The notes below the pieces were generated by a model. The model was not told the DNA's origin, did not search any database, and saw nothing but the letters and a program-made list of their open reading frames with translations. Of a DNA stretch of 64,000 nt, positions 1,202-57,452 are shown piece after piece (the first letter of the stretch is position 1; the number at the start of each line of letters is the position of its first letter). Source of the DNA: Dromaius novaehollandiae (taxonomy: Eukaryota > Chordata > Aves > Casuariiformes > Dromaiidae). The DNA is taken from contig NW_026991372.1 of the NCBI RefSeq assembly GCF_036370855.1, forward strand, positions 124,001 through 188,000. Direction: 5' to 3'. Both the position numbers and the translations under genes were made by a program.

Positions 1202-1391
1202 GGCGACAGCCGGAGACTGGAGGACGCCAGCGCGTACCTGAACCTGCCGTCCACGCGGAGCGCGTCGGAGCTGAGGATCCTCCCGGGCTCCTCGTTCCGA
1301 GTGAGCGGAGGCGCCGCGGGCATCAGCGTGTCCACCCGGGACAGCTTCCAAATCTCCACTCTCGTCTGCTCTACAAAGCTGACGCAGAACG
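1202..1391 (+). CDS. DOCK2-like: DOCK exon 1 of window: end of DHR-1
   Basis: Acceptor ttgcag, donor ggtgag. Encodes [20 protein letters not shown] through [18 protein letters not shown], the end of the C2-like DHR-1 lipid-binding domain. Phase 0 in, phase 1 out (63 codons plus one base). Confidence 0.92.
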
Positions 1392-4300: not shown

Positions 4301-7300
4301 GCAAACAAAGTCTGTGCTGATCCGTCCCCTTCGTCCCCCGCAGTCGATCTGCTGGGGCTGCTGAAGTGGCGCTCGAAGCCCAGCCTGCTCTCGGGAAACC
4401 TCCAGAAGCTGATGAACGTGGACGGCGGGGAAGTCATCAAGGTACAGCGAGCGGCTGCCGGCACCTTCGCCCTCCGCGTTCTCCCTTCGCGTCCCCCGGC
4501 CGCGTCCCCACGCCTGGGGCTTCCTCGGTCCCTCAGCGGCCGAGGGACGTCACCGCCCCGGAGGGAGGGTTGGCAGCGTCGCGATGGAGGTGTTGCACGG
4601 GCAGCGTCGCCGTGATGGTCACGCGCAGGGGAACTCTGAGCTCCCTCTTAGGGCGGATCAAGCTGGAGAATTGTCCCCTGGAACAGGGCTGGGAGCCTCA
4701 GGCTGGGAAAATAATACAGAAACCAGTTCTGCCCCAAGACAGAGCTTTCCCTCTGTCGGAGGTGGATCCAGGATGATGCTGGAGTCAACGCTCAAGCCCT
4801 CACAACCCTTTCTTCTCCTCCAGTTCCTCCAGGACACTTTGGACGCCTTGTTCTCCATCATGATGGAGAATGCAGACACGGACGTCTACGACACACTCGT
4901 CTTTGACGCCCTGGTGAGTAGGTCCCTGTCTCGCCTGCCTTCAGGCGCCTTCAGCCCTCTCTGGGCCAGGCTGAGGGAAGCCCAGCATTTCGCTCTGATC
5001 CAGCAGACAGATTACCAGAAGTGCCTGAAAGGGCATAAGACTGAGGGGGTTTTTGAGGTGGGATCTGCTGGATCTGATCAGGCGTGCAAGGCCCGGAGCC
5101 ACCCAGCCACGTCCAGGCTGCTCCACGGTCTCGCGGGCTGAGTGGAGCCCGGATGCCCTGGGCCTGGGGAAGGGCCACGGAGGTGGTCGGACTCTGCAGG
5201 TGGGGAGAGCAGTAGCTGCAATTTGAGCAAGGCTCAAAGGCGTTTCCTCTAGAACAAGCAGTAAAAGCAGCGTCAAGAGACAAGAGTGATCCTAGCAAAC
5301 AGCCTGGGGGGGGTCAGGTCGGAGCGACTGCTGTGCTCCCACCCGAGTCAGTGGCACCAGTGACAGCGGGAGCTCGGTGCAAACTGGCTGTGAGGCATCT
5401 TAGAGGTGCAGAAGCATCCAGCAAGCCCCGAATCTGAGATCTGCTCCATCTCGGTGGAGCGGACGGGCCCGCGGGAGGCTGGGGCACCCTCGGCAGCTCC
5501 GAGGAGGGACGTCAGCGCTGCTCCGGCTGTGCTCCGCGGTTCTGCTGACCCGGCGCCCGTCTCCCCCCAGGTTTTCATCGTGGGCCTCGTCGCCGACAGG
5601 AAGTTCCAGCACTTCAACGCGGTGCTGGAGGCTTATATCCAGCAGCACTTCAGTGCCACGCTGGCCTACAAGTGCGTGGGGGCCGCCGGGGACGGTCCCC
5701 CCCCGGGCAGGGCGCGGGGCTGGTGGCGGAGCGGGGAGGGACCCCGGCTGGCCCTGCCGCCGGCCGGGAGGGGGGACGTGGGAGCCGCCGTGGCTTTGCA
5801 GCAGCCCTGGGGCCCCGTCGCGTGGGAGGGAGGCGGGTCGGAAGCGGGACCCCCTCGGACCCCCTCGGACCCCTGCGGACCCCCTCACCGGTGCTGCCCC
5901 GCAGGAAGCTGCTCTCGGTGCTGACGCAGTACGTGGACAGAGTGAGCCAGGGCGAGCCCTGCGAGCCGCTCGTGCGCACCTTCAAGGCCCTCGAGTACGT
6001 CTTCAAATTCATCGTCCGCTCCAGGCGCCTCTTTGCCCAGTAAGTCCCAGCAGCCGCTTCCCCCTCTCCCAGTGCCCCCGGTGCTGGTGCCCATCCGGGC
6101 AGGTGCCGGTGCCCACGGCGCTCCCCAGCCTGGCGGTGCCGGGGCCCCGCGTGCCGCAGGCTCCGGTGCCGGGTCCGGGACGCCTCGCTGTCCCGCTGCA
6201 GCCGCCGGCCCTTCCTCGGAGCCGCTGCACGTGCGGGCTTCAGGCAGCACCGGGCTCTGTGCGCTCTCCGTCGCGGAGTCGTGCGGAGCAAGGCCGGGAG
6301 GGACCGGGGGGGGGGGGGGGGTCGTGTAGCAAACCCGTGCCCCGAGGCAGGACTGGCGCCGCTTAAGCTGTTGCAGGCAGGTTTTAATGTGCTCTTAAAA
6401 CCCTCCAGCAGCGGGGACAGCACAACCGCCCCAGGCAGCCCCGCGCCGCTCAGCTCGCATCGCGGGCGGGGGGTTTTCTAGCACCTGCTCCACGCGTTCC
6501 TCATCGCTCTTGGGGCTGGCGCTCCCTGTCCTGCTCCCACGGGAGACGGCAGCGCTTTTATTCCTTTCTTTGCTGCTTTTCGTGCGTCGGCCACCACTGC
6601 CGTGTCCCAGCGGCCAGGGACAGGACCTTCCCGGGGCGTCCCGGCCCCGGCAGGGCCGTCGCTCCTCCCGCCGCGCCGGCAGCCCCTTCCCTGCAGCCAG
6701 GCTGGGAACGGCCCTGTCCTGGCCGTGCTGCTCCCGGCCGAGGCTCGGCTGCGATCCGCTCCCCATCTTTCCTGAGGAGCCCTTGCTGCCCAGGCACGAG
6801 CTGCCCTGAAGCTTTCTCCTTGATTTTTCCTTTGAGAGGAAAACTTTGTGCTTATCCTTAGTGAATCGCAGCTTGCTTATTACCGAGCAGCTTTCCAATT
6901 TGTTGAGATTGTTATGAATTCTGGTCCGTCGCCCGGCTCCGCGCGGTCCCCCCGTTCCGACGTTATCTCCGTCTCTCCGGATAGCCTTCCGACGCGCGTG
7001 CCCGGCTCTGCCGTGGCCGAGCCCTGGCCGCCGCGTGCGGTGCGAGTGCCGGCAGGTCTGCTGGCCTGGCGACTGCCGCCGCTCTGCGCCGGGACCAGGC
7101 TGATGCCTCCGTAACGGAGACGGCAGGTCTGGCGTCAGGGGTTTGCGTGAAGCACCTCCTCTCCGCAATCCAAGCGACGCACGCGGCCCCTCCGACCGCC
7201 CCATGAGCTGCTCCGTTGCACTCCAGCCTGTCGCTGTGCCCTTGAATCATTTATAGCACAAACGACGTGTTCGCCGTCTCCGGGGTGTTCCCCGCACGCA

Positions 7301-10300
7301 GCGGGACCGAGGCGGTGGGCGCCTGCGGACCGGAGCGGGACTTGGGCTGCGCGAGCCCTTTCCTGCCCCGCACACCCGTTGGGCGGCTCGTGCCCCGCCG
7401 TGGAGGCTCGTCCCGCTTCGCGGCCCCGCTCGGCGTGAGCCTCCGCCGCCTTCTGCCGCGGCAGCCCTGGAGGGGGTCCCCCGGGAGCAGCCCGCGGCGG
7501 TCTCGGGGCAAACGGGACCTTCCTGCCCCTGTTCGGGAGGCGAAACGCGTTGAAGACAGTTCCCCAAGCTCGTCGCCCTCCAGGAGAGACCCTGGACCCT
7601 CCGAGGGCCGGAGGGAGACGGCAGGCGCGTCCCCCTGGGGCAGGCCGCCCCGGTGCCTCCCGAGCCATCCCAGGCTCGGTGCTTCCCTGGAGAAGCCACG
7701 CGGTTAAGTCCTACGGAAAGGCGTGGGACAGCAGGAGCGAAGCACACGGGCGCTTGATTCCCACCCGGATCCGCCGGGAGCACGGCGAGACGAATAACCC
7801 CCCGGGAAGGTCCGCGCTGACGCCGTGCGTCCTGGCCGGAGAGGGACGGCTGGGAGAAGTTTCCAGACGAAGTGAAAAACTGCTGGAAACACGACTGATG
7901 GGAGTCACCAGAAGAACCAAGCTGTGTTCCTGTTTCGTTCCCGGCGCGAGGCGCTGAGAGCTGAAGCGGTCCCAAAGAGGGGCAGGGAAGCGCCTCCCTT
8001 GCTAGGGGCAGCCGGAAGAGGACGGAGCAGCGCAGATCGGCTTGGGAGATCGGCACGGTTGGCTCGGGACCGGGGCAGAGCTGCTCGGGACCGTGCCGCT
8101 GGGGCGCACGACCAGGCGCGTGGCCGTTTTCCGGGGCGCGTTTAACGGGGCAGAGCAGAAGCAAGCCTTGCTGCAAGCCCCGTCCCTGCTCAGGCTTTCT
8201 GTTCGTTATCGCTCATCAGCGACTCCCGGCATCTCTTCAGGACTAGGCAGTTACTGCCGGGGCTCCGGGGATGCTCCATCACCGAGCTGAGGTTCCCACC
8301 TCTTCCTTATATAGGAAAATGTAGAACAAATTCGCCACCTTGTAAAACTTTCGGCAAAGAAAATTAATTATATGGAGCATTTGCAAACAGCCTTATGAAT
8401 TAGTTTGCATTAAAATAAAGACATCCCTGAAGACATTTAGTATTTTTATTCATCTTTTCTTTATCTCAGTGATCTTAACAGTGGAATAACATGAACTCTT
8501 CAGATCTTCTGAATGCTTAAAATGGTACTAAATCCTGTACACGGTCTATAATTTAAAGAAATTAGGTTGTAATTAAAATAAGTTGCTGCGGACTGCTGTA
8601 TCTATCTGATTATGTATGCTGCAGACGGAGTCGGATGAGCAGCTCGAGTACCTCCGAGGAGGCTCCCTGGTTCCCGCGCGGATAACCGGAGCGGCAGCCC
8701 GCCGGCGTCGGCAGGCCGGGCGCAACCGGAGGGCACGACGTTGCATCTGGCCTCTGCGGCACCGCAGGGAGAGGTTTGCTCCCCGGTGTTGATCCATCCT
8801 TCTTCTCCTAGGCCAGGAAGCGTCGTTGGCTGGAGCCCGGTAGGCTGGGAAGGGGCTGAATCCACAGCGCTGGCATCAGCAATGCTGTTCTTGAGCCTCC
8901 TGGAGTAACCGGCCAGCTGCTCCGCTGCCAAGATCGTGTTGTTTTTAGCCTGTTTCTCACGTGACGCCCTGGCGCGTTGCCTGGAGGAGGCAGCAACCGG
9001 CTGAGCCGCGCTCACCCTCTCCGGCCTTCGGGATGCTGGAGACCTCTCGCATCCCGCATCCCCGCATCTTCAGGCTGGGCTTTGGTAGCCCATTCCTGGT
9101 ATTTGCGTCTCTCCGTCATCTTCCTCCGAGCTCCCCAGTTCTGCTGTCTTTGCTGGGGAGGGCTGCCAGCGCCGCGCGCCGCTCGGGAGCCCCGTGGCTT
9201 GGTGCAGTGGTGTGACGACAGGGACTCTTGTTTTCTATTCCTTTTCTGTTAATTCCTAGTATTTGTTCTGCTTTTTGACTGCCACCGAGGGAAGTTTCCC
9301 TGCAGTGGTTTGCCGTAGCCCTGAGACATTGCCCTGCGCGTCGGCTCCAGCCTCCTGCCCATGCGGAAAGCTGGAGTCGCTCTTCCCGCGGCATCCGCTT
9401 CGTCTCGCGGGGCCCCGTGCCGCCGTCCCGCGGGTCCCTCTGCAGCGCCTCGCGGCCGGCCCCGCTCCCGCTTCCCTGGGTAACCGGCACCGTCACAAGC
9501 TCCATCACCTCCGTGCTCGTCCTCTTTTCCGGGCCTTTGTGCATTGGGCCATCCCGGTCAGCACAGGCGCTGAGGGACTTTGTCGGCTTCCTCCTCCGCG
9601 GGAACGGATCGCTTGTCCTGCCCTCTGCTCCCCTCTCTTCACCAGTCCCTTACCCATCTAGGAGCCCTCCCTTTAGCCCATCGTCTCTGAGTTTCCTGAT
9701 GAGTTTCTCTAGTGGGGGACTTGGCTGATGTCTGCCTGGGTCTCCGAAAGGCTTATCACGACTGACCGTCCCCATCCATGTTTTTGCTGGAGACTTCTTC
9801 AAAAGAGCACCAGGAGGTTTGCAAGGCAGGATTTCCCTTTCCAAAAGCCACACTGACTCATCCTTATCATGCTTTTTTACCATCATCCATACTAATTTGC
9901 TTAGTGTGGTGGTAGTCAGATAATTTCCCTGCCTAGCTTAATTGACAGCGCTTGAGAGATTTCCTGCGACGCTCCTCGAGCTCGGTTGCGTGTCGGGATC
10001 CAGGTGCTGCAGGGGTGAGAAAGGGTCTGCAAACCGGAGGGGCACCAGGCTTAAAGACAGGCTCTGTCTGTAGGTTTTCTGGATGAAATCCTCCAAACCA
10101 ACAGGTCAGTAATGAATTAAAGACCCTATTGACCCATGTCTGCTGCAGTAACGCAAATCAGCAGTAATCTTGGCTTAGCTGAGATGCACGCTCTGATTGC
10201 TTTATAGTGCTGTGGTTTAAGTCATTACTTAAAAGCTCAGACATCAGTGTTGATAATACACTCTTTTTAATGATTTTAATATTTATATGGTATTTACGTA

Positions 10301-46300: not shown

Positions 46301-49300
46301 AGCACCGCCCCAGCACGCAGCCCAGCATCACCCAGATGTGCAGCCTGGCATCAGCCAGATGTGCAGCCCAGCATCACCCAGATGTGCAGCCTGGCATTGC
46401 TCCCGCTGGCCGAGCCCGGTCCTGAGCCCGCTTCCCTCCCGGCAGGACTTCCTCATGGAGACCTTCATCCTCTTCAAGGACCTGATAGGCAAGACGGTGT
46501 ATCCCTCCGACTGGATGGTGATGAACATGGTGCAGAACCGGTGAGGAGCGGCGGCGGGGGGCGGCGGCGGCCGGGGAGGGCGGGAGGAGCGGGGACCGCC
46601 AGCGCCCGCACGGGGCTGTGGCCGGGCAGAGGCTCTTGGCCCTGCCATAACCCCCCCGGGCCCCCAGCGGCCCCGCACCCCCCCCCCCCCCCGGTGCTTC
46701 AGCCCTGCCCCACGGCGCCTGTCGCCCCCAGGGAGTTCCTGCACGCCATCAACCACTTTGCGGCCACCCTGACGGAGACGTTCCTGCAGCACAGCAGCTT
46801 CGAGCTGCAGGTGAGCCGCGCACCGCCCACGCCCCACGGCGAGCGGGGCCGGGGCTGCCCTGCCCCACGGCGAGCAGGGCTGAGGCCCCCAGGCCCCCAG
46901 CCCAGTCCGGGCTCTCCACGGCCCCGGCTCCCCGGCCCCCGGCCCCACACTCCCATCCGGTGCTTCCGTTGCAGCTCTGGAACAACTACTTCCACCTGGC
47001 CGTGGCTTTCCTCACGCAGGACTCCCTGCAGCTGGAGAACTTCTCCCAGGCCAAGCGCACCAGCATCCTGGCCAAGTGAGGCACCGCGTCTCCCCGCGCG
47101 GCCCCGGGCTGCCCCGCGGCTGAGTGCTGCGGCGTCTCGGGGCTCCTCGTGGGGCCGGGGGTCCCGGGAGGCACCCGGCTGTGCCGGGCGGGAGGAGCAG
47201 CGCTAACCAGCGCCGTCCCGGCAGGTACGGGGACATGCGAGCCACCATCGGAGCCGCCATCCGGGACATGTGGTACAAGCTCGGTGAGCCGCAGTGCAGC
47301 CAGCAGCGGTGTGTGCTGCATTTCCACGGGGCCGGCGTGCCTGCCGCGTCCTCGGCACCGTCCCTGCGGAGACGGGCGCCGCGGAGCGGGGTGGCACCGA
47401 GCCGGGCCGTGCGGGTGGCCTTGCCGGCCTGCTGGTGTGCAAGCGGGCAGGCGTGCGAGGCTGCGGGGCACGCAGGTGTGAGCAGTGCATGAGGCTGCGG
47501 GCGTGAAAGGCTGCAGATGTGCAAGCTGTTGAGCCTGCGGGGCATGCGTGCAGCTCCGCAGACGCGCGAGCCCGGGGGACGTGCAAGCCTGCAGGTGTGA
47601 GAGCCCGCGGGCGCTCCAGCGGGTCCATGAGCTCGTGCTCCCTGCCGCCAGCCTCCCTTCTCCGGGGGCTGCCTGCGCCTGCAGCCCTTCGTTTCCGATC
47701 CTCCGGCCCTGCGCTGGGCAGGCAGGGAGGGAACAGGGAGCAGCAGCTCCGGCTGCCGTTCCGCCTCCCGGCAGAGGTCGGGGAGCTGCAGGGAGCGAGT
47801 GCACCCAGCGCCGGCATGCGTCCTCGCCCCGGGCTGCGGGCGCTCAGCTCGGCCCTGCCCTCCCCAGGCCACCACAAGATCGAGTTCATCCCGGCCATGG
47901 TGGGCCCCATCCTGGAGATGACGCTGGTGCCGGAGCTGGAGCTGCGGAAATCCACCATCCCCATCTTCTTCGACATGATGCTCTGCGAGTACCAGCTGAC
48001 TGAGGGCTTCAGCCGGGTGAGCAGCCCGCGGCCGGGGCCGGGGATCCCGCGGGAGCTGGAGCCTCACCGGGCTGGACCGTCCCTTTCGGCAGGGACGGAG
48101 GTGCTGCTCAGCCTCGCCTCTCTCCCGGGGCGCTGGGATGTGGGGCTGCAGCGGGGAGGGACGAGGGACAGGGGATGAGGCCACCAGGGACAGGGGACGA
48201 GGCCACCAGGGACAGGGGACGAGGCCGCCTGCCGGGACGGCGGATGGGGATGAGGCCTCCAGCCGGGAGGTAGCAGACCCGAGGCCTGGGGCGATGCAGA
48301 GGGCTTCCCAGAGGCCGGAGGGGACGGGAGAGGTTCGGCCCCGCTCCGCCGGTCCCCGCACCGTGCGGAAGCCAGGACACAGCGGAGGGGACGTGCACGT
48401 ACCGTCCTCCCCTCCCCTTTCTGCAGTTTGAGGACGAGATCCTACGCAAGCTGGACAGCGAGGTGGAGGGCGGCCGGGGCGACGAACAGTACAAGCAGCT
48501 TTTCGAGAGCATGTGAGCACGTGGTGCCGGCCCTGCTCCCCCCCGCCCGGGGCACAAGCCTTTCCCGCGCGCGCTCCCGCCCCGGCCGGGTCCCGGCATC
48601 CTGCTCCTCCTGGCGCCGAGCGGACCCAGAGCCCCCCTCCCCGGGGAGCAGGATCCAAGGGGGGGGGCAGCTGCTACCCGGAGCGTCGTGTGCCCCAGGC
48701 ACCGTCGCTGCTCCCTCCAGCCTGGCCCTGCTGTGCCCCGGGCAATGCCCCCACCCCAGGCAATGCCCTGCCCCAGGCAATGCCCCTGCTGTGCCCCAGG
48801 CAATGCCCTGCCCCAGGCTTTGCCCCCACCCCGTGCCCATGGCAGCTCCGTGCACGGGGTGGCTGGAGCAGGGGGGTCTCTCCCCCGTCCCCGACGCGCC
48901 CGTCAGGGAGCAGAGCAGGACTTGCTCCACGCCGCTGCAGACCAGCCGTTGCCTTTCTCCTCGCCGGCCCCCGGCAGCTCCGGGCAGCTCGTGGCGGGGC
49001 CGAGCTGCGGCGGGGGTGGGAGCAGAGCGGGGCCGAGCGTGCTGCGAGACCCCCCCCTCCCTCCTCCCCAGCCTGCTCAGCTGCTGCCGGGAGCACCCCG
49101 AGCTGGCCGAGCCCGGGGAGAACTTCGTCGCGTTGGTGACGGGGCTCCTGGAGCGGCTCCTCGACTACCGGGCTGTTATGAACGACGAGAACAAAACCTA
49201 CAGCATGAGCTGCACCGTCAACCTCCTGGTGGGTCCCACCCCCTGCCCCAGGCCCCGGTCCCTGCGGCCTGTCCAGCCCGTGTCCCCTCAGATGTCCCCA

Positions 49301-52300
49301 GGCCCCCGGTGCAGCAGACAGGGCACCATGTGCACACGGGGTGCCGAAGCTGGTGTCACCCGGATGCAACCTGCGGTCACCCGGCCCAGTGGCCGCTAGG
49401 GCTGGCAGGGCCCGTTCCCAGCCCGGGCTCGCTCATGGAGCAGGTGCCTCGGCTCCCTGTGCCGCTGCTGCCCTGGAGCTCGCCGGTCCCCTCGGTGCCA
49501 CCCCGAGCATTGCCCTCCACCACGATGTCCCGTGTCCCAGGGCATCCCCAGTGCTCACAGTGTCCCAGGGCTTCCCTGAGCCCCCCAATGTCCCATGTCC
49601 CAGGGCATCCCCAGTGCTCACGGTGTCCCAGGGCTTCCCTGAGCCCCCCAATGTCCCATGTCCCAGGGCATCCCCAGTGCTCACGGTGTCCCAGGGCTTC
49701 CCTGAGCCCCCCAGTGTCCCGTGTCCCAGGGCATCCCCAGTGCTCACGGTGTCCCAGGGCATCCCTGAGCCCCCCAGTGTCCCATGTCCCAGGGCATCCC
49801 CAGTGCTCACGGTGTCCCAGGGCTTCCCTGAGCCCCCCAATGTCCCATGTCCCAGGGCATCCCCAGTGCTCACGGTGTCCCAGGGCTTCCCTGAGCCCCC
49901 CAATGTCCCATGTCCCAGGGCATCCCCAGTGCTCACGGTGTCCCAGGGCTTCCCTGAGCCCCCCAATGTCCCGTGTCCCAGGGCATCCCCAGTGCTCACG
50001 GTGTCCCAGGGCTTCCCTGAGCCCCCCAATGTCCCGTGTCCCAGGGCATCCCCAGTGCTCACGGTGTCCCAGGGCTTCCCTGAGCCCCCCAGTGTCCCAT
50101 GTCCCAGGGCATCCCCAGTGCTCACGGTGTCCCAGGGCTTCCCTGAGCCCCCCAGTGTCCCGTGTCCCAGGGCATCCCCAGTGCTCACAGTGTCCCAGGG
50201 CTTCCCTGAGCCCCCCAGTGTCCCGTGTCCCAGGGCATCCCCAGTGCTCACAGTGTCCCAGGGCTTCCCTGAGCCCCCCAATGTCCCGTGTCCCAGGGCA
50301 TCCCCAGTGCTCACGGTGTCCCAGGGCTTCCCTGAGCCCCCCAATGTCCCGTGTCCCAGGGCATCCCCAGTGCTCACGGTGTCCCAGGGCATCCCTGAGC
50401 CCCCCAGTGTCCCGTGTCCCAGGGCATCCCCAGTGCTCACGGTGTCCCAGGGCATCCCTGAGCCCCCCAATGTCCCATGTCCCAGGGCATCCCCAGTGCT
50501 CACGGTGTCCCAGGGCATCCCTGAGCCCCCCAATGTCCCATGTCCCAGGGCATCCCCAGTGCTCACGGTGTCCCAGGGCTTCCCTGAGCCCCCCAGTGTC
50601 CCGTGTCCCAGGGCATCCCCAGTGCTCATGGTGTCCCAGGGCTTCCCTGAGCCCCCCAGTGTCCTGTGTCCCAGGGCATCCCCAGGCCCTGGTGCCAAAG
50701 GCCCCAGCCCGCTCCAGCTCGCAGGGGGGGCACGGTGCTGCTCCCGGTCCACGGTGCCTCCTGCGGGACCCGCTGCCGAGGGCGACTGAGGCCCTGGCTG
50801 GGACGGGGCCTGGCAGCGCCATGGGTCCAGGCACGGGGGCCACGCACGCACCCCCGGGCCCCCCCGACGCCCCTCTGCTCCCCGCAGAACTTCTACAAGG
50901 AGATCGACCGCCAGGCCATGTACATCAGGTGCGCGCCGCCCCGGGGAGGGGGGCCTGGGGGGCCGCCCGCCCCACACCCCGCTGCAGCCCGGGCCCCGCG
51001 CGGCGCTGCCGGCTCCGGTGCCAGCCCACCGCCCCGCACGCGCTGCCCCCGCCCCAGGTACCTCTACAAGCTCAAGGACCTGCACATCAGCTACGAGAAC
51101 TACACGGAGGGCGCCTACACGCTGCTGCTGCACGCGCGGCTGCTCAAGGTGGGCCCCGCGCGCTGCGTGCCGGGTGCCGGTGCCGGGTGCCAGTGCCGGG
51201 TGCCGCCCCGCAGCTGGGCGTGACGGGCTCCCGCCGCCTCCGCACAGTGGTCGGACGAGCCGAACACGGCGCCCATGCAGGGCTCGCACAGCCCCAGCCT
51301 GCACAGCCAGCGCCAGCTCAAGGAGGCCCTCTACAACCAGATCATCAGCTACTTCGACCAGGGCAAGGTGAGCACGGCGCACGGAGCAGGGTGCACGGAG
51401 CAGGGTGCATGGAGCGGGGTGCACATGGAGCAGGGTGCATGGAGCAGGATGCACATGGAGCGGGTGAGCATCGCCCACAGAGCAGGGTGCACGCAGAGCA
51501 TGTAGAGCAGGTGAGCATTGCTCATGGAGCAGGGCGCACGGAGCAGGTGAGCACAGTGCATGGAGCAGGGCACACGGAGCAGGGTGCACACGGAGCATGT
51601 GGAGCAGGTGAGCATCGCCCACGGAGCAGGGTGCCCACGGAGCAGGGTGCATGCGGAGCAGGTGAGCATCGCCCACAGAGCAGGGTGCACACGGAGCAGG
51701 TGAGCATCACCCACGGAACAGGGTGCCCACGGAGCAGGGTGCATGCGGAGCAGGTGAGCATCGCCCACAGAGCAGGGTGCACACGGAGCATGTGGAGCAG
51801 GTGAGCATCACCCACGGAACAGGGTGCCCACGGAGCAGGGTGCATGCGGAGCAGGTGAGCATCGCCCACAGAGCAGGGTGCACACGGAGCATGTGGAGCA
51901 GGTGAGCATCACCCACGGAACAGGGTGCCCACGGAGCAGGTGAGTGTTGCCCATGGAGCAGGGCGCACGGAGCAGGGTGCACGTGGAGCAGGTGAGTACA
52001 GCCCCCAGAGCAGGGTGCACATGGTGTCCCCCCTGCAGGAGCCAGTTTCACCCAGGAGCACCCCGTGCCCCCCCCCCCAGCTCACGCTGCAGCCAGCGGT
52101 GGGTGCCGGGCCCTCACCCCGCCCTGTTTTGCAGATGTGGGAGGAGGCCATCCACATCTGCAAGGAGCTGGCGGAGCAGTATGAGAGCGAGATCTTCGAC
52201 TACGAAATGCTGAGCGACATCCTGGTGAGCGCCGGGGCCGGGGGCCACGCAGGGCTGGGGCATGGTGCCGGAAGAGCGGGAGCAGGGGCAGTGCTGGCCC

Positions 52301-55300
52301 CCTCCGCCCGCGCCGCGAGCGTTTGCGTCGCCCCCGCAGCAGCGAGAAGCCCGGTTCTACGAGAAGATCCTCAAGGTGCTGCGGCCCAGCCCGGACTACT
52401 TCGCCGTGGGCTACTACGGGCAAGGCTTCCCCACCTTCCTGCGGGTAAGCGGCGCCCGGCGGCGGCTCCGGGCTGGCGAGCGAGCTCCCTCCGGGCACCT
52501 GGTTGAGCCCAGGAGCGGTGGCTGCAGCACGGCCGCCTCGGGGGGCTGCACTGAGGGGCACATGTGCAGCCGGGGGCGTCCGGGGCTCGCCCCCCTCCTG
52601 CTCGCAGGGCTCCGCAGCTGCAGAAGGGAAACGCCAGCTTTGCTCTAGCAAAAGGCTGCGGTCCCTGTTGCAAAAGCTTGGCAGCACGGTTGCAAGAGAA
52701 AAGTATCACGTGGAAAGCTATAGTTCTCCATAATGCACAGTGGCAGGGCCCCTGCCCCACGTCCTTGGTGCGCGGCGGTGTTGCTTCCCTGCACGTGGTG
52801 CCACGGTGTCCGTGCTCCATCCGCAGGGCGCAGCTGCGTCCGCGCCGTTTCCCACCCGGGGTGCGGGGACGTGCCGTGGCTGTGCTGTGTCACAGCTGGT
52901 GCAGGTCTCACATCTGGTGCAGGGATACGGCAGCGCTAACGCTGCGCTATTTGGGCACCTGCTGGGGCTCTCGCGGGAGGCCTCTGCCCCGTGCGCGGCC
53001 CTGCCAGCGGTGCAGGCGTGGGGCGAGCTGGGCAGGCGCTGCTTTTGCTGTTCCCGTGCTAGGGAACCGGCCCAGTAATTTTTTGGACACGGGCTCCGTG
53101 GGGCGGAGGCTCGGCCTCGGCAGCACGTGCACCCTCGAGGCACCAGCGCTCCCGTGCAGCGCGGTGGGACCGACCACGGCCTTCCTCCCCGCAGAACAAG
53201 GTCTTCATCTACCGGGGCAAGGAGTACGAGCGCCGGGAGGACTTCGAGATGCGGCTGCTGAGCCCCTTCCCCAACGCCGAGAAGCTGCAGAGCACCTCGC
53301 CGCCGGGGCCGGACATCACCGCCTCGCCGGGGCAGTGTATCCTCCGTGCAGCCGGGCTGCTCGTCCCCCCGCCCCCCCTCCCCGTCCCCTTCCCCCCATC
53401 CCCGCAGCCCCACGCGTGCCCGCGGCTCCTTCACTCCCGCAGACATCCAGTGCTTCACCGTGCAGCCCGTGGAGGAGGCCAAGGCCTGGCTCAAGGACCG
53501 GAGCATCCCGGAGCAGATCACCAAGTGAGCGTCCCGCGGGCACCGCGCTCGGGGCAGCGGCGGCCGCATCCTGCGGGGATGCTCAGCCCTCCCCTCCGCT
53601 CCCTCCCGGCAGCTTCTACAAAGCCAACCACATCCAGAGCTTCAGCTACTCGCGGCCCTTCAAGAAAGGCCCCAAGGACCCCGACAACGAGTTCGCCGTG
53701 AGCGTCGCACCGGCGGCCGGGAGCCCCGGACCGGGGAGCCACGGGAGCCCCAGCGGGGAGCGGTCACCGGGGGGGATGCAGAAGGGATGGGGGGACCCAG
53801 CCCCGTGCCGGGGGGCAGCCAGGGAGCCCCATGCTGGGGGGGTAGCTGGGGGGCAGCCGGGGAGCCCCATGCTGGGGGGTAGCTGGGGGGCAGCCGGGGG
53901 GCAGGTGATGCACGTCCCAGGCGGGGGGACAGGCAGGAGGTGCAGCGGGGACGCGGTGCAGGGGGGACACGGCGCAGGTGACCACCACCCTCCCCGCAGA
54001 CCATGTGGATCGAGCGGACCACCTTCACCACGGCTTACCCGCTGCCGGGCATCCTGCGCTGGTTCGTGGTCACCGCCACAGCCACGGTGAGCAGGGAGCA
54101 GCCGCCCCGTGCCGTCCCGGCGCAGCCCGCAGCCCGCACCCCGGGGATGCAGCACGTGTTTCCCTCCTGCATCCCGCTGCCCCAGGGCTGCCACGCGGGT
54201 CCCCCCAGGGCAGGGGGAGCACTGCCGGGTGCTGACCCCCCTCCCTGCCTCCCGCTTGGGCGCAGACCATCATCAGCCCGCTGGAAAACGCCATCGAGAC
54301 CATGACGAAAACCAACGAGAAGATCCTGAGCGAGATCAACCGGCACCAGGGAGACCCTAGCCTGCCCGTCAACCCGCTCTCCATGCTGCTCAGCGGCATC
54401 GTGGACCCCGCCGTCATGGGCGGCTTCGCCAAGTACGAGACGGTGAGGACGCGGGGGCCGGCCGGGCGCGGGCGCATCCCCGGGCCGAGTGCGTGGGGCT
54501 GAGCCGCCTCCGGGCGCAGGCCTTCTTCCAGGAGTCCTACCTGCAGGAGCACCCCGAGGACCAGGGAAACGTCGAGAGGCTGAAGGACCTGATCGCCTGG
54601 CAGGTAGGGCCGGGGGGCTCCCGGGGCCGCGGCGCCCGCCGGCCCCCGCGGGACCGTGCCGCTGCCCGCAGACCCCGCTGCTGGCCGAGGGCCTCCGCAT
54701 CCACGGGCGCAAGGTGACGGAGGACCTGCGGCCCTTCCACGAGCGCATGGAGCAGTGCTTCGCGCAGCTGCGCGCCAAGGTGGAGAGCCAGTACGGCGTG
54801 CGGGAGATGGTGAGCGCTGCGGCCGGCACCGGGCATCGCGGGGGGGGACGGGGGGGGGGGGGGGGACGGGCTGGCCCGGGGGCCGCAGGGTCCCCGCGGG
54901 GGGGGCGGCTCGGGGAGGGCTCCCGGCTCCCCCTGCTCTCAGGTCTCCCTGGAGGACCGGCGAGGCGGACGACCCCGGTCCATGATCTGGGGACCGGACC
55001 GGGACCGGCTGAGCCGCGCCGGAGACAGGCAAGTGCTGCGGGGGGGGGGGCAGCCCGGGGCCGCCCCGTCGCGCTCCTCGCCCCCCCGCCAGCCCCCCGC
55101 TGATGCACCGCGGTGGCACCCGCAGCGCGGAGGCAGCCCCGAGCCCCAGGCCCCCCCCGCGCGTCCCCGAGGGCGAGGAGCGCCGCAGGGAGAACCGCTC
55201 CAGCGCCTTCTTCGCGTACCGGCGGTCGGATCAGCGCCCGTCCGTCTCAGAGCCCCTGGAGCCCAAGGTGATGCCTCCGCCCGCCCCGGCGCCCCCGCTC

Positions 55301-56475
55301 CGCCCCGGGCCCAGCTCGGGCTGCCCCCGAGCCGCAGACCCTGCAGCCCCCGGGGCCGCCCGGCTCGGGGCTCCCGGCTCGGGGCAGCAAGCGCTCCGGG
55401 CGGCGGGCGCTGCACAGCCGCAGCCCCGTGCCCGTCCCCGTCCCCGTGCCCGTGCCCGTGCCCGTGCCGCTGACCTGCCTCCGCGCCCCAGGACGAGAAG
55501 CGGAGACTCTCCCGCAACATGAGCGAGAGCAACCTCAGCGGCTTCGAGGGGAAGCAGCCGCCGGCGAGCAGGGAGGCCGCCGGCCCGCAGCCCAGCGCCG
55601 CAGGTACCGCCGCGCTGCCCCGCGCCTTCCCGGCCCGGCCGCGGCCGCCTTCCCCTTCCCCGGCACCCAGCCCGGGCCGCAGGGCCGTGCCCCCCCCGTG
55701 CCCCCGCTCCCGCCCGGCCGGAGCATCCCGTCTCCCAGGGGCAGGGAGCTCCCGTAGGAGGCAATTTCAGTGCCGCGAGACCACTCCTTCAGCGTGACAG
55801 CGCGTAAACAAGACAATTAGCACTGGGCTAATTGCCATGCGGGCACAGCACCACCCCCCCGCGCTGGGACGGTGGCAGGGGCTGCTGCTCGCTGCCCCCG
55901 GCCCGGGGAGCAGGGCCCCGCCCGCGCCCGCACCCGCACCCGCAGCCGCGCTGGACGGCGGCAGAGCCCCTGCCCGCTGCGCCGAGGGGCACCAGCCCCC
56001 CGCACCGGCTCTGGGGCGCAGCGGGCCGTGCCGCGGGCCGGCACTCGGGCAGGAGGCAGCGGCACAGGCGGCCCCGCACACCCCCGGGGGCCCGGCCGCC
56101 GCCGCGGGACACGGCGCTGCCCTCGCGGCCCCGCTCGCGCCGTGGGGCGCCGGGCTGGACGCCCCGCCACGCCGCGCCCCTCCGCGCAGGGCCGTCCCCG
56201 CCTCCCACCGGCTTCGGCGGCCGCGTGAAGAGCGCCAGCAAGGCCCCGCCGCTGCCGCGGAAGATCAGCCCCACGGTGTACGAGGCCTTCCTGGAGCAGA
56301 GCGACACGGCAAGCGGAGGGGAGGTGCCCCCGGCCCCCGGCCCCCGGCGCCCCCCGCTCGCAGTAACCGCCCTTTCCGCCCGCAGGCGCCCGCGCTGCCG
56401 ACGCCGGATGGAAGCAAGGGGCTGAAGTCGCCCCCCCCTCCGCCACCCAAGTCCAAGCGGGTGTCCCAGCTCTGA
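1202..56475 (+). CDS. DOCK2-like: DOCK-A family Rac guanine-nucleotide exchange factor, DOCK2-like (3' 35 exons, gene runs off left edge)
   Basis: Joining the 35 exons listed separately gives 3759 nt with consistent phases, about 1252 residues plus stop. That matches the C-terminal two thirds of DOCK1/2/5 (about 1830-1870 aa in human). The order is: end of DHR-1 (C2), helical middle, DHR-2 catalytic domain (about exons 19-31), Ser/Pro/basic tail. Family landmarks seen are [77 protein letters not shown] and [11 protein letters not shown]. By eye the closest relative is DOCK2 ([17 protein letters not shown], the DRKFQHFN exon, tail [13 protein letters not shown]). Many substitutions and a poly-Pro/PxLPxK tail argue against orthodox DOCK2. 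Family knowledge: DOCK-A proteins bind ELMO and load Rac with GTP at the membrane. The 5' exons (SH3, most of DHR-1) are outside the window. The ohnolog assignment is inference. Confidence 0.93.
1392..4343 (+). other. DOCK intron 1 of window
   Basis: About 3 kb, GC-rich with poly-pyrimidine runs near 2200-2235 and G-runs near 4130-4170. No exon-like conserved segment seen. Confidence 0.6.
4344..4441 (+). CDS. DOCK2-like: DOCK exon 2 of window: start of helical region
   Basis: Acceptor cccgcag, donor aag/gtacag. Completes Val, then [15 protein letters not shown] through NVDGGEVIK; close to the DOCK2 and DOCK5 exon of the same length class. Phase 1 in, 0 out. Confidence 0.93.
4824..4913 (+). 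CDS. DOCK2-like: DOCK exon 3 of window: helical region
   Basis: Acceptor ctccag, donor ctg/gtgagt. Encodes [20 protein letters not shown] ending LVFDAL, one of the most conserved DOCK-A segments. Thirty codons, phase 0/0. Confidence 0.94.
5571..5671 (+). CDS. DOCK2-like: DOCK exon 4 of window: helical region
   Basis: Acceptor ccccag, donor aa/gtgcgt. Encodes [20 protein letters not shown] then [22 protein letters not shown] and EAYIQQHF are shared with DOCK2 rather than DOCK5. Phase 0 in, 2 out. Confidence 0.94.
5905..6039 (+). CDS. DOCK2-like: DOCK exon 5 of window: helical region
   Basis: Acceptor ccgcag, donor ca/gtaagt. Encodes [17 protein letters not shown] then [19 protein letters not shown]. 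The GE-CEP and [14 protein letters not shown] strings point to DOCK2 as nearest relative. Confidence 0.94.
6040..11842 (+). other. DOCK intron 5 of window
   Basis: 5.8 kb. GC-rich flanks enclose AT-rich, CpG-poor blocks at about 8290-8620 and 10080-10460 and a TA-rich microsatellite at 11560-11625. No exon seen. Confidence 0.6.
11843..11954 (+). CDS. DOCK2-like: DOCK exon 6 of window: helical region
   Basis: Acceptor ttcgcag, donor cag/gtacgg. Encodes [20 protein letters not shown] then [17 protein letters not shown]. It follows a 5.8 kb intron, one of the largest of the gene. Phase 2 in, 0 out. Confidence 0.92.
12060..12500. repeat. 98-bp CpG-rich minisatellite, about 4.5 copies
   Basis: TGCGGTGCCGGTGTTGCCGC recurs at 12083, 12181, 12279, 12377 and 12474. 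Each unit contains GCGGCCGC and a run of seven or eight G. Confidence 0.95.
17400..17800 (+). mobile_element. Old CR1 LINE internal fragment
   Basis: TTTTAAAGGATGACTAAGATGACC, then AACTGCAGACCAAATAAG and AAAGAATTAAAGGATGGCAG TATAATTAATG resemble a reverse-transcriptase-region segment of ancient sauropsid CR1. No intact frame. Confidence 0.6.
19140..19210 (+). CDS. DOCK2-like: DOCK exon 7 of window: helical region
   Basis: Acceptor ttcccag, donor gg/gtaagt. Encodes [31 protein letters not shown] is a family signature. Only 71 bp, flanked by introns of 7.2 kb and 1.0 kb. Confidence 0.9.
20258..20364 (+). CDS. DOCK2-like: DOCK exon 8 of window: helical region
   Basis: Acceptor attgcag, donor tacg/gtaaga. 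Encodes [20 protein letters not shown] then [15 protein letters not shown]; aligned by the PP..L.KQK..S...IV pattern of DOCK2. Phase 2 in, 1 out. Confidence 0.9.
20365..23274 (+). other. DOCK intron 8 of window
   Basis: 2.9 kb, containing a CR1 3' end (about 21880-22181). The short introns 7 (19211-20257) and 3 (4914-5570) likewise show nothing besides C-runs. Confidence 0.6.
21880..22181 (+). mobile_element. CR1 LINE 3' fragment
   Basis: Contains CTGGAACACGTGGCCCAGAG AGGCTGTGG, TGGACACGGTTCTGGGC and CCTTCCAACCCCAACTATTC TGTGAT, the bird CR1 3' end. 5'-truncated and diverged. Confidence 0.88.
23275..23402 (+). CDS. DOCK2-like: DOCK exon 9 of window: helical region
   Basis: Acceptor cgacag, donor aag/gtaaag. 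Encodes (E)[20 protein letters not shown] then [18 protein letters not shown], matching the family ECR..LLP....L..LLS.ILEVL pattern. Phase 1 in, 0 out. Confidence 0.9.
23403..29236 (+). other. DOCK intron 9 of window
   Basis: 5.8 kb. Mixed composition; an inverted repeat lies at 27889-27923. No coding segment recognised. Confidence 0.55.
27889..27923. repeat. Perfect 14-bp inverted repeat with 7-nt loop
   Basis: ATCGTGCAGAGATA (27889-27902), loop CTGCCAC, TATCTCTGCACGAT (27910-27923). Pairing does not extend beyond 14 bp. Confidence 0.85.
29237..29332 (+). CDS. DOCK2-like: DOCK exon 10 of window: helical region
   Basis: Acceptor tttcag, donor agg/gtgagt. Encodes [20 protein letters not shown] then [24 protein letters not shown] is the family pattern. 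The intron after it hosts the antisense INSYN2-like gene. Confidence 0.9.
29333..31313 (+). other. DOCK intron 10, part left of the INSYN2-like gene
   Basis: Very GC-rich, CpG-dense, with a G-run at about 30609-30628 and C-runs. No exon recognised on either strand. Confidence 0.5.
31314..31319 (-). terminator. INSYN2-like poly(A) signal AATAAA
   Basis: TTTATT on the plus strand reads AATAAA on the minus strand, about 200 bp past the INSYN2-like stop, in an AT-rich patch. Confidence 0.65.
31517..31691 (-). CDS. INSYN2-like: INSYN2-like coding exon 3 and stop
   Basis: Acceptor gccgcag. Encodes [20 protein letters not shown], a short linker, then [20 protein letters not shown] and TGA (31519-31517). 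The K-K-x-x-CFWFL ending is a family hallmark. Confidence 0.92.
31517..35961 (-). CDS. INSYN2-like: Inhibitory synaptic factor 2 family protein (FAM196), complete, nested antisense in DOCK intron 10
   Basis: Three exons, 35961-34565, 33482-33408 and 31691-31517, join in phase to 548 codons plus stop (INSYN2 proteins are about 480-530 aa). Conserved blocks seen: [16 protein letters not shown] near the N-terminus, [11 protein letters not shown], a C-terminal coiled coil ([34 protein letters not shown]), the Cys-rich [14 protein letters not shown], and the C-terminus [34 protein letters not shown]. Human INSYN2A lies in a DOCK1 intron and INSYN2B in a DOCK2 intron in the same antisense arrangement. 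Family role: scaffold at gephyrin-type inhibitory synapses. ATG 35961 is chosen because it begins a compact N-terminus before the conserved block; an in-frame ATG at 36024 would add 21 Arg-rich residues. A versus B cannot be decided here; it may be a third paralogue. Confidence 0.87.
31899..32075. repeat. 78-79 bp tandem repeat, about 2.3 copies
   Basis: GGGAGGGYTCTGCAG recurs at 31899, 31978 and 32056 inside the second INSYN2-like intron. Confidence 0.85.
32610..32705. repeat. 17-18 bp tandem repeat (GAGCAAGGTGCTGCAC)
   Basis: Five to six imperfect copies in the second INSYN2-like intron (31692-33407), which otherwise shows no exon. Confidence 0.8.
33408..33482 (-). CDS. INSYN2-like: INSYN2-like coding exon 2
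   Basis: Acceptor ttgcag, donor cag/gtaggg, 75 bp. Encodes [24 protein letters not shown]; the five-cysteine patch matches the family RYRT..H..NC..C..CACIIYS. Confidence 0.9.
33483..34564 (-). other. INSYN2-like intron 1
   Basis: 1.08 kb. A TA-rich patch at 33595-33745 and a C-run at about 34463-34482. Nothing else recognised. Confidence 0.6.
34565..35961 (-). CDS. INSYN2-like: INSYN2-like coding exon 1
   Basis: Runs from the ATG to donor gg/gtgagc. It carries the QVRF and SQTSP blocks and the coiled coil. The middle is a low-complexity Pro/Arg/Gly region with a coding tandem repeat around 35318-35430 (GHPCAPxP units). A pyrimidine-rich acceptor candidate upstream (AG at 36400-36399) suggests a separate 5' noncoding exon. 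Confidence 0.86.
35850..36500 (-). promoter_or_regulatory. CpG island over the INSYN2-like start and 5' acceptor
   Basis: Extremely CpG- and GGC/CCG-dense. On the minus strand a long pyrimidine tract (36434 down to 36410) precedes GAG and CAG acceptor options near 36405 and 36399, so this may be the 5' edge of the coding exon rather than the transcription start. Confidence 0.55.
36657..37400. repeat. 57-bp minisatellite, about 13 copies
   Basis: Tandem copies start with TGTGTGGGGCAGGGCTGCG at 36664, 36721, 36778 and on, period 57 with a few G/A and C/T variants. Because 57 is a multiple of 3, several frames on both strands stay open (GQGC-GRGA type peptides), which creates large false ORFs. 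Confidence 0.95.
38520..39290 (+). mobile_element. Old CR1 LINE fragment with degraded reverse transcriptase
   Basis: The nucleotide sequence still reads LDFCKAFD and HIKWIKNWL, typical of LINE reverse transcriptase, with frameshifts and stops between them. CAATTTTTTAAAGGCTGGAT GTTTTTCT near 39155 matches the 3' part of turtle/crocodile-type CR1. Confidence 0.75.
39300..43290 (+). other. DOCK intron 10, part right of the INSYN2-like gene
   Basis: Apart from the CR1 fragment at 40740-41050, no exon or repeat is recognised. GC rises from about 41800 toward the CpG island. Confidence 0.55.
40740..41050 (-). mobile_element. Old CR1/L3-like LINE fragment
   Basis: Reads as reverse complement of a CR1 3' part: CTTGAATAGCTTTTCTCCCT TCTTAGTATTTA and CTCAGCCTACGCTTTGCATC. 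Confidence 0.6.
43300..43515. repeat. 51-bp minisatellite, about 4 copies
   Basis: Units of CTTGGTGCGGGTGCTCGCCG followed by a GGGTCCCCCC segment, on the left shoulder of the intronic CpG island. Confidence 0.92.
43500..44560 (-). promoter_or_regulatory. CpG island inside DOCK intron 10, candidate promoter of INSYN2-like
   Basis: Dense CpG, GC boxes and CCCGGT repeats. On the minus strand a consensus donor CACCAG/GTACCG sits at 43895/43894. With the acceptor near 36399 this would give a noncoding first exon and a 7.5 kb first intron. Inference only; it could also serve an internal DOCK promoter. Confidence 0.4.
44890..45022. repeat. 14-bp tandem repeat GGAGCTCTGACCGG
   Basis: About nine copies with C/T and G/T variants, ending 600 bp before DOCK exon 11. 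Confidence 0.9.
45616..45714 (+). CDS. DOCK2-like: DOCK exon 11 of window: helical region
   Basis: Acceptor ccccag, donor atg/gtgagt. Encodes [20 protein letters not shown] then [25 protein letters not shown] matches DOCK2. First exon of the compact 3' half. Confidence 0.94.
45875..46410. repeat. 23-bp minisatellite in DOCK intron 11
   Basis: More than 20 degenerate copies of CATCACCCAGATGTGCAGCC TGG fill most of the 731-bp intron. Confidence 0.93.
46446..46540 (+). CDS. DOCK2-like: DOCK exon 12 of window: helical region
   Basis: Acceptor cggcag, donor cg/gtgagg. Encodes [20 protein letters not shown] then [11 protein letters not shown], nearly invariant in DOCK-A. Confidence 0.95.
46732..46810 (+). 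CDS. DOCK2-like: DOCK exon 13 of window: helical region
   Basis: Acceptor ccccag, donor cag/gtgagc. Encodes (R)[26 protein letters not shown]; family pattern R.FL.AIN.FA......F......FE.Q. Confidence 0.94.
46975..47075 (+). CDS. DOCK2-like: DOCK exon 14 of window: helical region
   Basis: Acceptor ttgcag, donor aa/gtgagg. Encodes [33 protein letters not shown], nearly identical to DOCK2 and DOCK5. Confidence 0.95.
47225..47283 (+). CDS. DOCK2-like: DOCK exon 15 of window: helical region
   Basis: Acceptor cggcag, donor ctcg/gtgagc. Encodes (K)[19 protein letters not shown]; family pattern KYGDMR..IG..IRDMWY.L. Confidence 0.95.
47868..48016 (+). CDS. DOCK2-like: DOCK exon 16 of window: helical region
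   Basis: Acceptor ccccag, donor cgg/gtgagc. Encodes (G)[20 protein letters not shown] then [30 protein letters not shown] is the DOCK2 form; DOCK5 has FDMMQCEF. Confidence 0.95.
48427..48512 (+). CDS. DOCK2-like: DOCK exon 17 of window: helical region
   Basis: Acceptor ctgcag, donor at/gtgagc. Encodes [39 protein letters not shown] is a DOCK-A hallmark. Confidence 0.95.
49072..49228 (+). CDS. DOCK2-like: DOCK exon 18 of window: helical region leading into DHR-2
   Basis: Acceptor ccccag, donor ctg/gtgggt. Encodes [20 protein letters not shown] then [24 protein letters not shown]; family LLDYR....DE....MSCTVN.L. The next intron carries the 63-bp minisatellite. Confidence 0.94.
49527..50690. 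repeat. 63-bp minisatellite in DOCK intron 18, about 18 copies
   Basis: Unit CATCCCCAGTGCTCACGGTG then TCCCAGGGCTTCCCTGAGCC and CCCCAATGTCCCATGTCCCA GGG. Copies differ at a few sites (CA/CG after TCCC, CTTCC/CATCC). The multiple-of-3 period produces ORFs of 480 to over 1000 codons with no biological support. Confidence 0.96.
50888..50928 (+). CDS. DOCK2-like: DOCK exon 19 of window: start of DHR-2
   Basis: Acceptor ccgcag, donor ag/gtgcgc. A 41-bp exon encoding [13 protein letters not shown](R), the start of DHR-2 lobe A (DOCK5 has NFYKEKKREDIYIR). Confidence 0.92.
51058..51148 (+). CDS. DOCK2-like: DOCK exon 20 of window: DHR-2 lobe A
   Basis: Acceptor ccccag, donor aag/gtgggc. Encodes [30 protein letters not shown]; family YLYKL.DLH....NYTEAAYTLLLH. 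The usual second Ala of the EAAY motif is Gly here. Confidence 0.95.
51248..51367 (+). CDS. DOCK2-like: DOCK exon 21 of window: DHR-2 lobe A
   Basis: Acceptor gcacag, donor aag/gtgagc. Encodes [20 protein letters not shown] then [19 protein letters not shown]; family WSD......QLKE.LY..II.YFD.GK. The intron after it repeats its own donor-like motif. Confidence 0.94.
51377..52020. repeat. Tandem array of donor-like units in DOCK intron 21
   Basis: Degenerate units of about 35-55 bp built from GGAGCAGGTGAGCATCGCCC and ACGGAGCAGGGTGC. About a dozen contain CAG/GTGAGC or CAG/GTGAGT. Confidence 0.92.
52135..52224 (+). CDS. DOCK2-like: DOCK exon 22 of window: DHR-2 lobe A
   Basis: Acceptor ttgcag, donor ctg/gtgagc. 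Encodes [51 protein letters not shown] matches DOCK2 almost residue for residue. Confidence 0.95.
52340..52444 (+). CDS. DOCK2-like: DOCK exon 23 of window: DHR-2
   Basis: Acceptor ccgcag, donor cgg/gtaagc. Encodes [36 protein letters not shown] 3-base shift of the acceptor (CAG-CAG) is possible. Confidence 0.95.
53195..53336 (+). CDS. DOCK2-like: DOCK exon 24 of window: DHR-2 lobe B
   Basis: Acceptor ccgcag, donor cagt/gtatcc. Encodes [20 protein letters not shown] then [23 protein letters not shown]; the beta-sheet lobe B of DHR-2. Confidence 0.95.
53443..53524 (+). CDS. DOCK2-like: DOCK exon 25 of window: DHR-2 lobe B
   Basis: Acceptor ccgcag, donor aa/gtgagc. Encodes (Y)[35 protein letters not shown] is the DOCK2 form. 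Confidence 0.94.
53613..53697 (+). CDS. DOCK2-like: DOCK exon 26 of window: DHR-2
   Basis: Acceptor cggcag, donor gcc/gtgagc. Encodes (N)[28 protein letters not shown]; family F.YSRP..KG..DPDNEFA. Confidence 0.94.
54000..54086 (+). CDS. DOCK2-like: DOCK exon 27 of window: DHR-2
   Basis: Acceptor ccgcag, donor acg/gtgagc. Encodes [29 protein letters not shown]. The Glu of the usual WFEV is Val here (WFVV). Confidence 0.94.
54266..54442 (+). CDS. DOCK2-like: DOCK exon 28 of window: DHR-2 lobe C, catalytic core
   Basis: Acceptor gcgcag, donor acg/gtgagg. Encodes [20 protein letters not shown] then [23 protein letters not shown]. It holds the ISP triplet (54272-54280), whose mutation inactivates DOCK1, and the Val (codon 54413-54415) that in known DOCK structures acts as nucleotide sensor. 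Both are intact. Confidence 0.95.
54520..54603 (+). CDS. DOCK2-like: DOCK exon 29 of window: DHR-2 lobe C
   Basis: Acceptor gcgcag, donor cag/gtaggg. Encodes [31 protein letters not shown]...YL.EHPEDQ and LKDLIAWQ are family signatures. Confidence 0.95.
54672..54809 (+). CDS. DOCK2-like: DOCK exon 30 of window: end of DHR-2
   Basis: Acceptor cccgcag, donor atg/gtgagc. Encodes [20 protein letters not shown] then [43 protein letters not shown] resembles DOCK1; YGVREM resembles DOCK2. Confidence 0.94.
54943..55028 (+). CDS. DOCK2-like: DOCK exon 31 of window: start of C-terminal tail, ends at a GC donor
   Basis: Acceptor tctcag; the donor is AG/GCAAGT, the standard GC-AG consensus. Encodes [20 protein letters not shown] then [18 protein letters not shown] is shared with DOCK1 and DOCK2. 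Phase 2 out fits the conserved frame of the next exon. Confidence 0.88.
55126..55267 (+). CDS. DOCK2-like: DOCK exon 32 of window: C-terminal tail
   Basis: Acceptor ccgcag, donor aag/gtgatg. Encodes (S)[20 protein letters not shown] then [32 protein letters not shown] corresponds to RSSVVFA of DOCK2, which fixes the frame. Confidence 0.85.
55492..55603 (+). CDS. DOCK2-like: DOCK exon 33 of window: C-terminal tail
   Basis: Acceptor ccccag, donor gcag/gtaccg. Encodes [20 protein letters not shown] then [27 protein letters not shown] is a DOCK2 tail motif. Confidence 0.88.
56190..56323 (+). CDS. DOCK2-like: DOCK exon 34 of window: tail with PxLPxK motif
   Basis: Acceptor gcgcag. Encodes (G)[20 protein letters not shown] then [25 protein letters not shown] at 56246-56263 fits the CRK SH3 consensus PxLPxK. 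The donor is ambiguous: GT at 56324 (gag/gtgccc) or GC at 56309 (acg/gcaagc). Both are phase 0 and differ by five codons (ASGGE). Confidence 0.82.
56386..56475 (+). CDS. DOCK2-like: DOCK exon 35 of window: last coding exon and stop
   Basis: Acceptor cccgcag. Encodes [15 protein letters not shown] then [14 protein letters not shown] and TGA at 56473-56475. The Pro-run plus Lys ending resembles the DOCK1 and DOCK5 C-termini (PPPPPPK) and is absent from mammalian DOCK2. Confidence 0.88.
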   Translation, partial: APALPTPDGSKGLKSPPPPPPKSKRVSQL

Positions 56476-57403: not shown

Positions 57404-57452
57404 TCACAGCGGGTTTGCCGAGGAGGCTGCCAGCCGCTTCCCGATGTAGATT
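57404..57452 (-). CDS. BNIP3-like: BNIP3-like exon 6: end of the membrane anchor and stop
   Basis: Acceptor aatccag. Encodes (G)IYIGKRLAASSANPL and TGA (57406-57404). IYIGKRL equals the BNIP3L sequence. The small exon is easily missed because it lies beyond a repeat-filled intron. Confidence 0.92.

Follow-up and report, generated by a model that had tools for sequence, protein, structure and literature searches.

The 64-kb stretch of DNA analysed here (the window) very probably carries a fourth DOCK-A gene that is functional and represented here by its 3' two thirds. It would be a sister ohnologue of DOCK2, within a block of the fourth paralogon that has survived. This gene, which we call DOCK-X, is linked to members of the INSYN2 (FAM196) and BNIP3 families. 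A fourth DOCK-A copy, sister to DOCK2, had been proposed from a sequence-only reading of the window. The proposal is now supported by the ohnologue-level distance of DOCK-X from the human genes, by a tree split, by an antisense INSYN2 gene and by an adjacent BNIP3-family gene.

The DOCK-X gene model

The exons of DOCK-X were first located by search with provisional human DOCK1 and DOCK2 sequences. Splice sites were set by a script that required GT/GC-AG, kept the frame and maximised similarity to this DOCK2 sequence, and exons 32-35 were set by eye from the sequence (Table 1). The 35 exons join into one frame of 1252 amino acids with no internal stop and no frameshift. Donors are GT in 33 of the 34 introns and GC in the remaining one (55029), and all 34 acceptors are AG; this canonical pattern is partly given by construction, since the script accepted nothing but GT/GC-AG. 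GC content is 94% at third codon positions and 65.7% in the window as a whole. All 35 in-phase DOCK-A exons of the sequence-only reading were rebuilt over the same span, from 1202-1391 to 56386-56475, and a string search and its output showed that the DOCK2-type strings and the PPPPPPK tail described there are present in the translation.

The model begins at the position that matches residue 554 of DOCK2, and the counterpart of residues 1-553 lies beyond the window start. Hence, the SH3 domain and most of DHR-1 fall outside the window. Three features go beyond the earlier description: DOCK-X is cut by the window start, and there are two more genes, one inside it and one just behind it. In exon 34 there are two in-frame donors, 56308 (GC) and 56323 (GT), and isoforms made from them would differ by five residues. 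Judged by the U12 consensus, intron 24 is probably a minor-class (U12) intron.

Table 1. Features of the window (positions counted from its first base).
Feature	Position	Strand	Details
DOCK-X gene, 3' part	1202..56475	+	35 coding exons; Pfam and PDB matches
DOCK-X exons 1-5	1202-1391, 4344-4441, 4824-4913, 5571-5671, 5905-6039	+	
DOCK-X exons 6-10	11843-11954, 19140-19210, 20258-20364, 23275-23402, 29237-29332	+	
DOCK-X exons 11-15	45616-45714, 46446-46540, 46732-46810, 46975-47075, 47225-47283	+	
DOCK-X exons 16-20	47868-48016, 48427-48512, 49072-49228, 50888-50928, 51058-51148	+	
DOCK-X exons 21-25	51248-51367, 52135-52224, 52340-52444, 53195-53336, 53443-53524	+	
DOCK-X exons 26-30	53613-53697, 54000-54086, 54266-54442, 54520-54603, 54672-54809	+	
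DOCK-X exons 31-35	54943-55028, 55126-55267, 55492-55603, 56190-56323 (alternative end 56308), 56386-56475	+	
DOCK-X stop TGA	56473-56475	+	
Exon 1, end of DHR-1/C2 domain	1202..1391	+	DOCK-C2 profile 141-186 of 187, E 7e-4, under curated cut-off
Armadillo/TPR exons	4344..49228	+	Pfam TPR_DOCK, protein residues 76-599, E 7e-227
Catalytic DHR-2 exons, lobes A, B, C	49072..54809	+	Protein residues 648-1058
Nucleotide-sensor valine codon	54413..54415	+	DOCK-X residue 982, aligned with DOCK2 Val1539
Proline-rich tail	54943..56475	+	PPLPRK, PPPPPPK and a stretch like the DOCK2 tail
DOCK-X intron 10	29333..45615	+	16,283 bases; hosts antisense INSYN2 gene
DOCK-X intron 24	53337..53442	+	Donor GTATCC; TCCTTCAC ahead of acceptor
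INSYN2-X (FAM196) gene	31517..35961	-	Coding exons 35961-34565 (alternative ATG 36024), 33482-33408, 31691-31517
BNIP3-X gene	57404..58928	-	58928-58907, 58750-58624, 58529-58415, 58324-58230, 58097-57948, 57452-57404
Minisatellites in DOCK-X introns	49525-50685, 36651-37397, 45859-46397, 51370-52020, 12060-12493		Units of 63, 57, 23, 14-101 and 98 bases, respectively

Domains and predicted function of DOCK-X

A Pfam scan of the joined protein served as an independent check on the model. The lobes of the DHR-2 region all score over their curated cut-offs (A 2e-18, B 4e-16, C 4e-22), and exon 1 matches the end of the DOCK1 DHR1 chain 3l4c in PDB (E 1e-10). The top PDB match of the first 640 amino acids is human DOCK5, at full length (2e-221), with the DOCK2 chain 6tgb at 5e-130; this lower score is due to the many unresolved X residues of 6tgb in this part. 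For the last 612 amino acids, DOCK2 comes out on top (2e-204), ahead of DOCK5 (6e-190). Exon by exon, the armadillo part is the least similar to DOCK2, with 20/37, 12/23, 15/36, 18/43 and 14/32 identities in exons 6-10. Exons 4 (28/33) and 12 (26/31) are the most similar.

We take Val1539 of DOCK2, as numbered here, to be the nucleotide sensor; DOCK-X retains this valine, at residue 982. The available text of PMC10152721 describes the sensor valine as invariant in DOCK proteins and as Val1951 in DOCK9. Lobe C of DHR-2 would push this conserved valine into the nucleotide site of the GTPase. The PPLPRK of the tail conforms to PxLPxK, the pattern of CRK-SH3 ligands. DOCK5 also has PPPPPPK, as seen in a PDB alignment. 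Binding of the DOCK1 proline-rich tail by CRK is documented (available text of PMC10152721 and PMC5043372), and a tail of this DOCK1/DOCK5 kind would recruit CRK-type adaptors. According to the available text of PMC11267001, DOCK-A proteins bind ELMO and activate Rac. DOCK-X most likely would act like DOCK1, DOCK2 and DOCK5, activating Rac via DHR-2 while bound to ELMO. Its Rac and ELMO specificity, its binding of CRK and its expression are predictions made from the sequence.

Relationship of DOCK-X to the DOCK-A genes

DOCK-X was compared over 1077 aligned residues with human DOCK1, DOCK2 and DOCK5, and with DOCK4 as outgroup. The letters of DOCK1 and DOCK4 are provisional, those of DOCK5 come from PDB alignments, and 764 DOCK2 letters were checked against such alignments. 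Identity of DOCK-X is 64.7% to DOCK2, 63.2% to DOCK1, 59.5% to DOCK5 and 40.2% to DOCK4, which places it nearer to DOCK1/2/5 than to this DOCK-B member. Among the human DOCK-A proteins themselves, the corresponding values are 65.2% (DOCK1-DOCK2), 68.3% (DOCK1-DOCK5) and 59.0% (DOCK2-DOCK5). DOCK-X is separated from human DOCK1, DOCK2 and DOCK5 by an ohnologue-level distance, human sequences being those compared.

The maximum-likelihood tree pairs DOCK-X with DOCK2 (SH-aLRT 92.5, UFBoot 90) and DOCK1 with DOCK5 (93.9/96). This split is favoured by 33 informative sites, against 8 and 8 for the alternative splits. In an AU test of 15 rooted topologies, the 10 lacking the split were rejected (p < 1e-11); of the five that contain it, the best reached p 0.96, three more were retained (p 0.05, 0.07 and 0.13) and one was rejected (p 0.03). 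Of the 33 sites behind the split, the provisional DOCK4 outgroup sides with DOCK1/DOCK5 at 7 and with DOCK2/DOCK-X at 5, so that the root is weakly informed. A sister relationship of DOCK-X and DOCK2 is therefore firmly indicated in the unrooted tree; once rooted with DOCK4, it is only moderately supported, because the AU test also retains three further placements of the root on this split. The path from DOCK-X to DOCK2 (0.667) is no shorter than that from DOCK1 to DOCK5 (0.574), and hence the split between DOCK-X and DOCK2 looks 2R-old. Sites changed in DOCK2 alone number 61 and those changed in DOCK-X alone 66.

DOCK2 (human, PDB 6tgb) is thus the closest relative in the tree, with the same order of domains from the C2 end to DHR-2 and, in its tail, a stretch in common with DOCK-X. 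However, it is only 64.7% identical, in keeping with the many changes relative to DOCK2 remarked on in the sequence-only reading, and the PPLPRK/PPPPPPK tail and the BNIP3-family neighbour are features of DOCK-X. DOCK5 (human, PDB 7dpa/9lx0) and DOCK1 have the Rac exchange-factor architecture and a proline-rich tail as in DOCK-X, but stand on the opposite side of the well-supported split.

Nested and neighbouring genes

INSYN2A and INSYN2B lie antisense within introns of human DOCK1 and DOCK2. From these hosts, a nested INSYN2 gene was anticipated in DOCK-X before the ORF scan, and then found. Ten ORFs, nine of them on the minus strand at 31-45 kb, were scanned with Pfam, and one gave a FAM196 match of 2.9e-14. 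INSYN2-X is a complete gene of three coding exons, antisense in intron 10 of DOCK-X, encoding 548 or 569 amino acids. Its 548-residue form matches Pfam PF15265 (8.1e-53, 181 bits, cut-off 27) over profile positions 312-489 of 489, that is, to the C-terminal end, the N-terminal part (profile before 312) being unmatched. Like INSYN2A, INSYN2-X ends in WFL, and its antisense nesting is like that of human INSYN2A and INSYN2B. It has 99/292 identities with provisional letters of INSYN2A, and its middle differs, being alanine/proline-rich and of low complexity. In the first coding exon, a 24-base tandem repeat of 4.4 copies (35324-35429) encodes GHPCAP-type repeats. FAM196A is placed beside DOCK1 in the GnRH3 cluster in the available text of PMC6135963. 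INSYN2-X may represent a third INSYN2 member, distinct from INSYN2B.

BNIP3-X is convergent with DOCK-X and lies 0.9 kb past its stop. Its first sign in six-frame scans 3' of this stop was a minus-strand match to BNIP3 of 1.2e-6, accompanied by a further fragment scoring 0.056, and the three plus frames of the same region gave no Pfam match. The gene is complete, with six coding exons, 185 amino acids, SWVEL and a full transmembrane end, and the model matches Pfam PF06553 over profile positions 6-181 of 184 (2.6e-22, 79.8 bits, cut-off 26). WVEL and the transmembrane end LLLSHLLxxGLGIYIGxRL are common to BNIP3-X, BNIP3 and BNIP3L, but the central DWSSRPENIPPKEF stretch is not conserved in BNIP3-X. 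In human, BNIP3 lies in the DOCK1 region and BNIP3L in the DOCK5 region. A further named BNIP3-family gene is zebrafish bnip4 (available text of PMC4201762). BNIP3-X would be a third member of the family, neither BNIP3 nor BNIP3L.

Our reading of INSYN2-X and BNIP3-X as extra members draws on the DOCK result and on the arrangement of the genes, and the nested INSYN2 gene and BNIP3 neighbour in turn strengthen the fourth-copy reading. The human copies would have lost different members: DOCK5 is not known to be accompanied by an INSYN2 gene, nor DOCK2 by a BNIP3 gene. Three linked genes from these families, with different members lost per human copy, would fit a surviving fourth paralogon. In this scenario, the genome duplications of vertebrates would have produced DOCK-X and DOCK2 as sister ohnologues, and the surviving block of the fourth paralogon would also retain a third INSYN2 and a third BNIP3-family gene.

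Alternative explanations

It is unlikely that DOCK-X is the ordinary DOCK2 of this species, together with INSYN2B, evolving fast on a GC-rich chromosome. DOCK2 is indeed its nearest relative and hosts an INSYN2 gene too. Moreover, fast evolution of bird genes in sequencing-refractory regions is reported in the available text of PMC8449477, and the comparison had human DOCK1, DOCK2 and DOCK5 as the sole DOCK-A references in the tree and INSYN2A alone for INSYN2-X. However, the distance between DOCK-X and DOCK2 is not below that between DOCK1 and DOCK5, and the 33 shared split sites compare poorly with the changes private to each protein, when bird and mammal orthologues should be expected to share relatively more. 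The gene downstream is also a BNIP3 gene and not the FOXI1 of the human gene order.

Descent from the other side of the split, by which DOCK-X would be DOCK1, DOCK5 or a recent copy of one of them peculiar to this lineage, is exceedingly improbable. The six of the 15 topologies that pair DOCK-X with either gene were rejected (AU p < 1e-11, with provisional DOCK1 and DOCK4 letters), and identity is only 59.5-63.2%. These results outweigh the PPPPPPK tail common to DOCK-X and DOCK5, the lead of DOCK5 among PDB matches to the first 640 amino acids, a part in which some of the DOCK2 chain is unresolved, and the position of BNIP3L in the human DOCK5 region. We also consider it very unlikely that the fourth copy is a decaying pseudogene: 1252 codons are free of stop or frameshift, usable sites are found at 34/34 introns and the catalytic lobes are strongly conserved, although the armadillo part is divergent in exons 6-10 and the 5' half lies beyond the window.

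Proposed loss in mammals and significance

If DOCK-X is the fourth DOCK-A gene, we infer that it was lost in mammals, because the human DOCK family has 11 members (available text of PMC8063744). Among the matches listed in a search of titles and abstract openings of the open-licence literature, there was no description of a fourth DOCK-A gene, and a term search of the main texts of PMC12954441 and PMC8449477, as far as available, gave no mention of DOCK, BNIP, FAM196 or INSYN2. Avian dot chromosomes were surveyed in 2026 for ohnologues with human orthologues only (available text of PMC12954441), a restriction that would put the DOCK-X block in the blind spot of that survey. The prospects are evenly balanced that the three-gene block (DOCK-X, nested INSYN2-X and convergent BNIP3-X) has stayed intact in this lineage, is absent from mammals, undescribed and missed by human-based avian ohnologue catalogues. 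If so, DOCK-X would be the missing one of the four DOCK-A genes predicted by two rounds of genome duplication, and there would be, outside mammals, a further Rac exchange factor as sister of DOCK2, the regulator of leukocytes. Linked ohnologues absent from mammals could then hide in GC-rich chromosomes, and functional studies of DOCK2, INSYN2 and BNIP3 in such species would have to allow for a further copy.

Repeats and other content of the window

Six-frame Pfam scans of 19.3-29.2 and 36.2-45.6 kb gave nothing beyond one DOCK exon, and no transposon proteins were found by Pfam on either strand of 8.5-18.3 kb. In 29.2-36.2 kb, chosen ORFs were scanned; two weak sub-cut-off Pfam matches in the ORF scan were taken as chance. 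No RNA families or tRNA were found in the window. Composition suggests that the window comes from a bird or another sauropsid, perhaps from an avian microchromosome. Bird markers are weak: five patterns for CR1-repeat ends gave no match with fewer than three mismatches and three matches with three. As for exon 'stuttering', no exon-derived repeat exceeded the 42.1-bit threshold (available text of PMC12954441). Tandem repeats make up 9.5% of the window; 17 of the 34 DOCK-X introns contain them, as do 0.2% of the bases in exons. Avian dot chromosomes are described as having intron repeats and intact exons, with chromosome medians of 7-93% (available text of PMC12954441), so that the median tandem-repeat cover of the DOCK-X introns, about 0.5%, lies under the dot-chromosome range.
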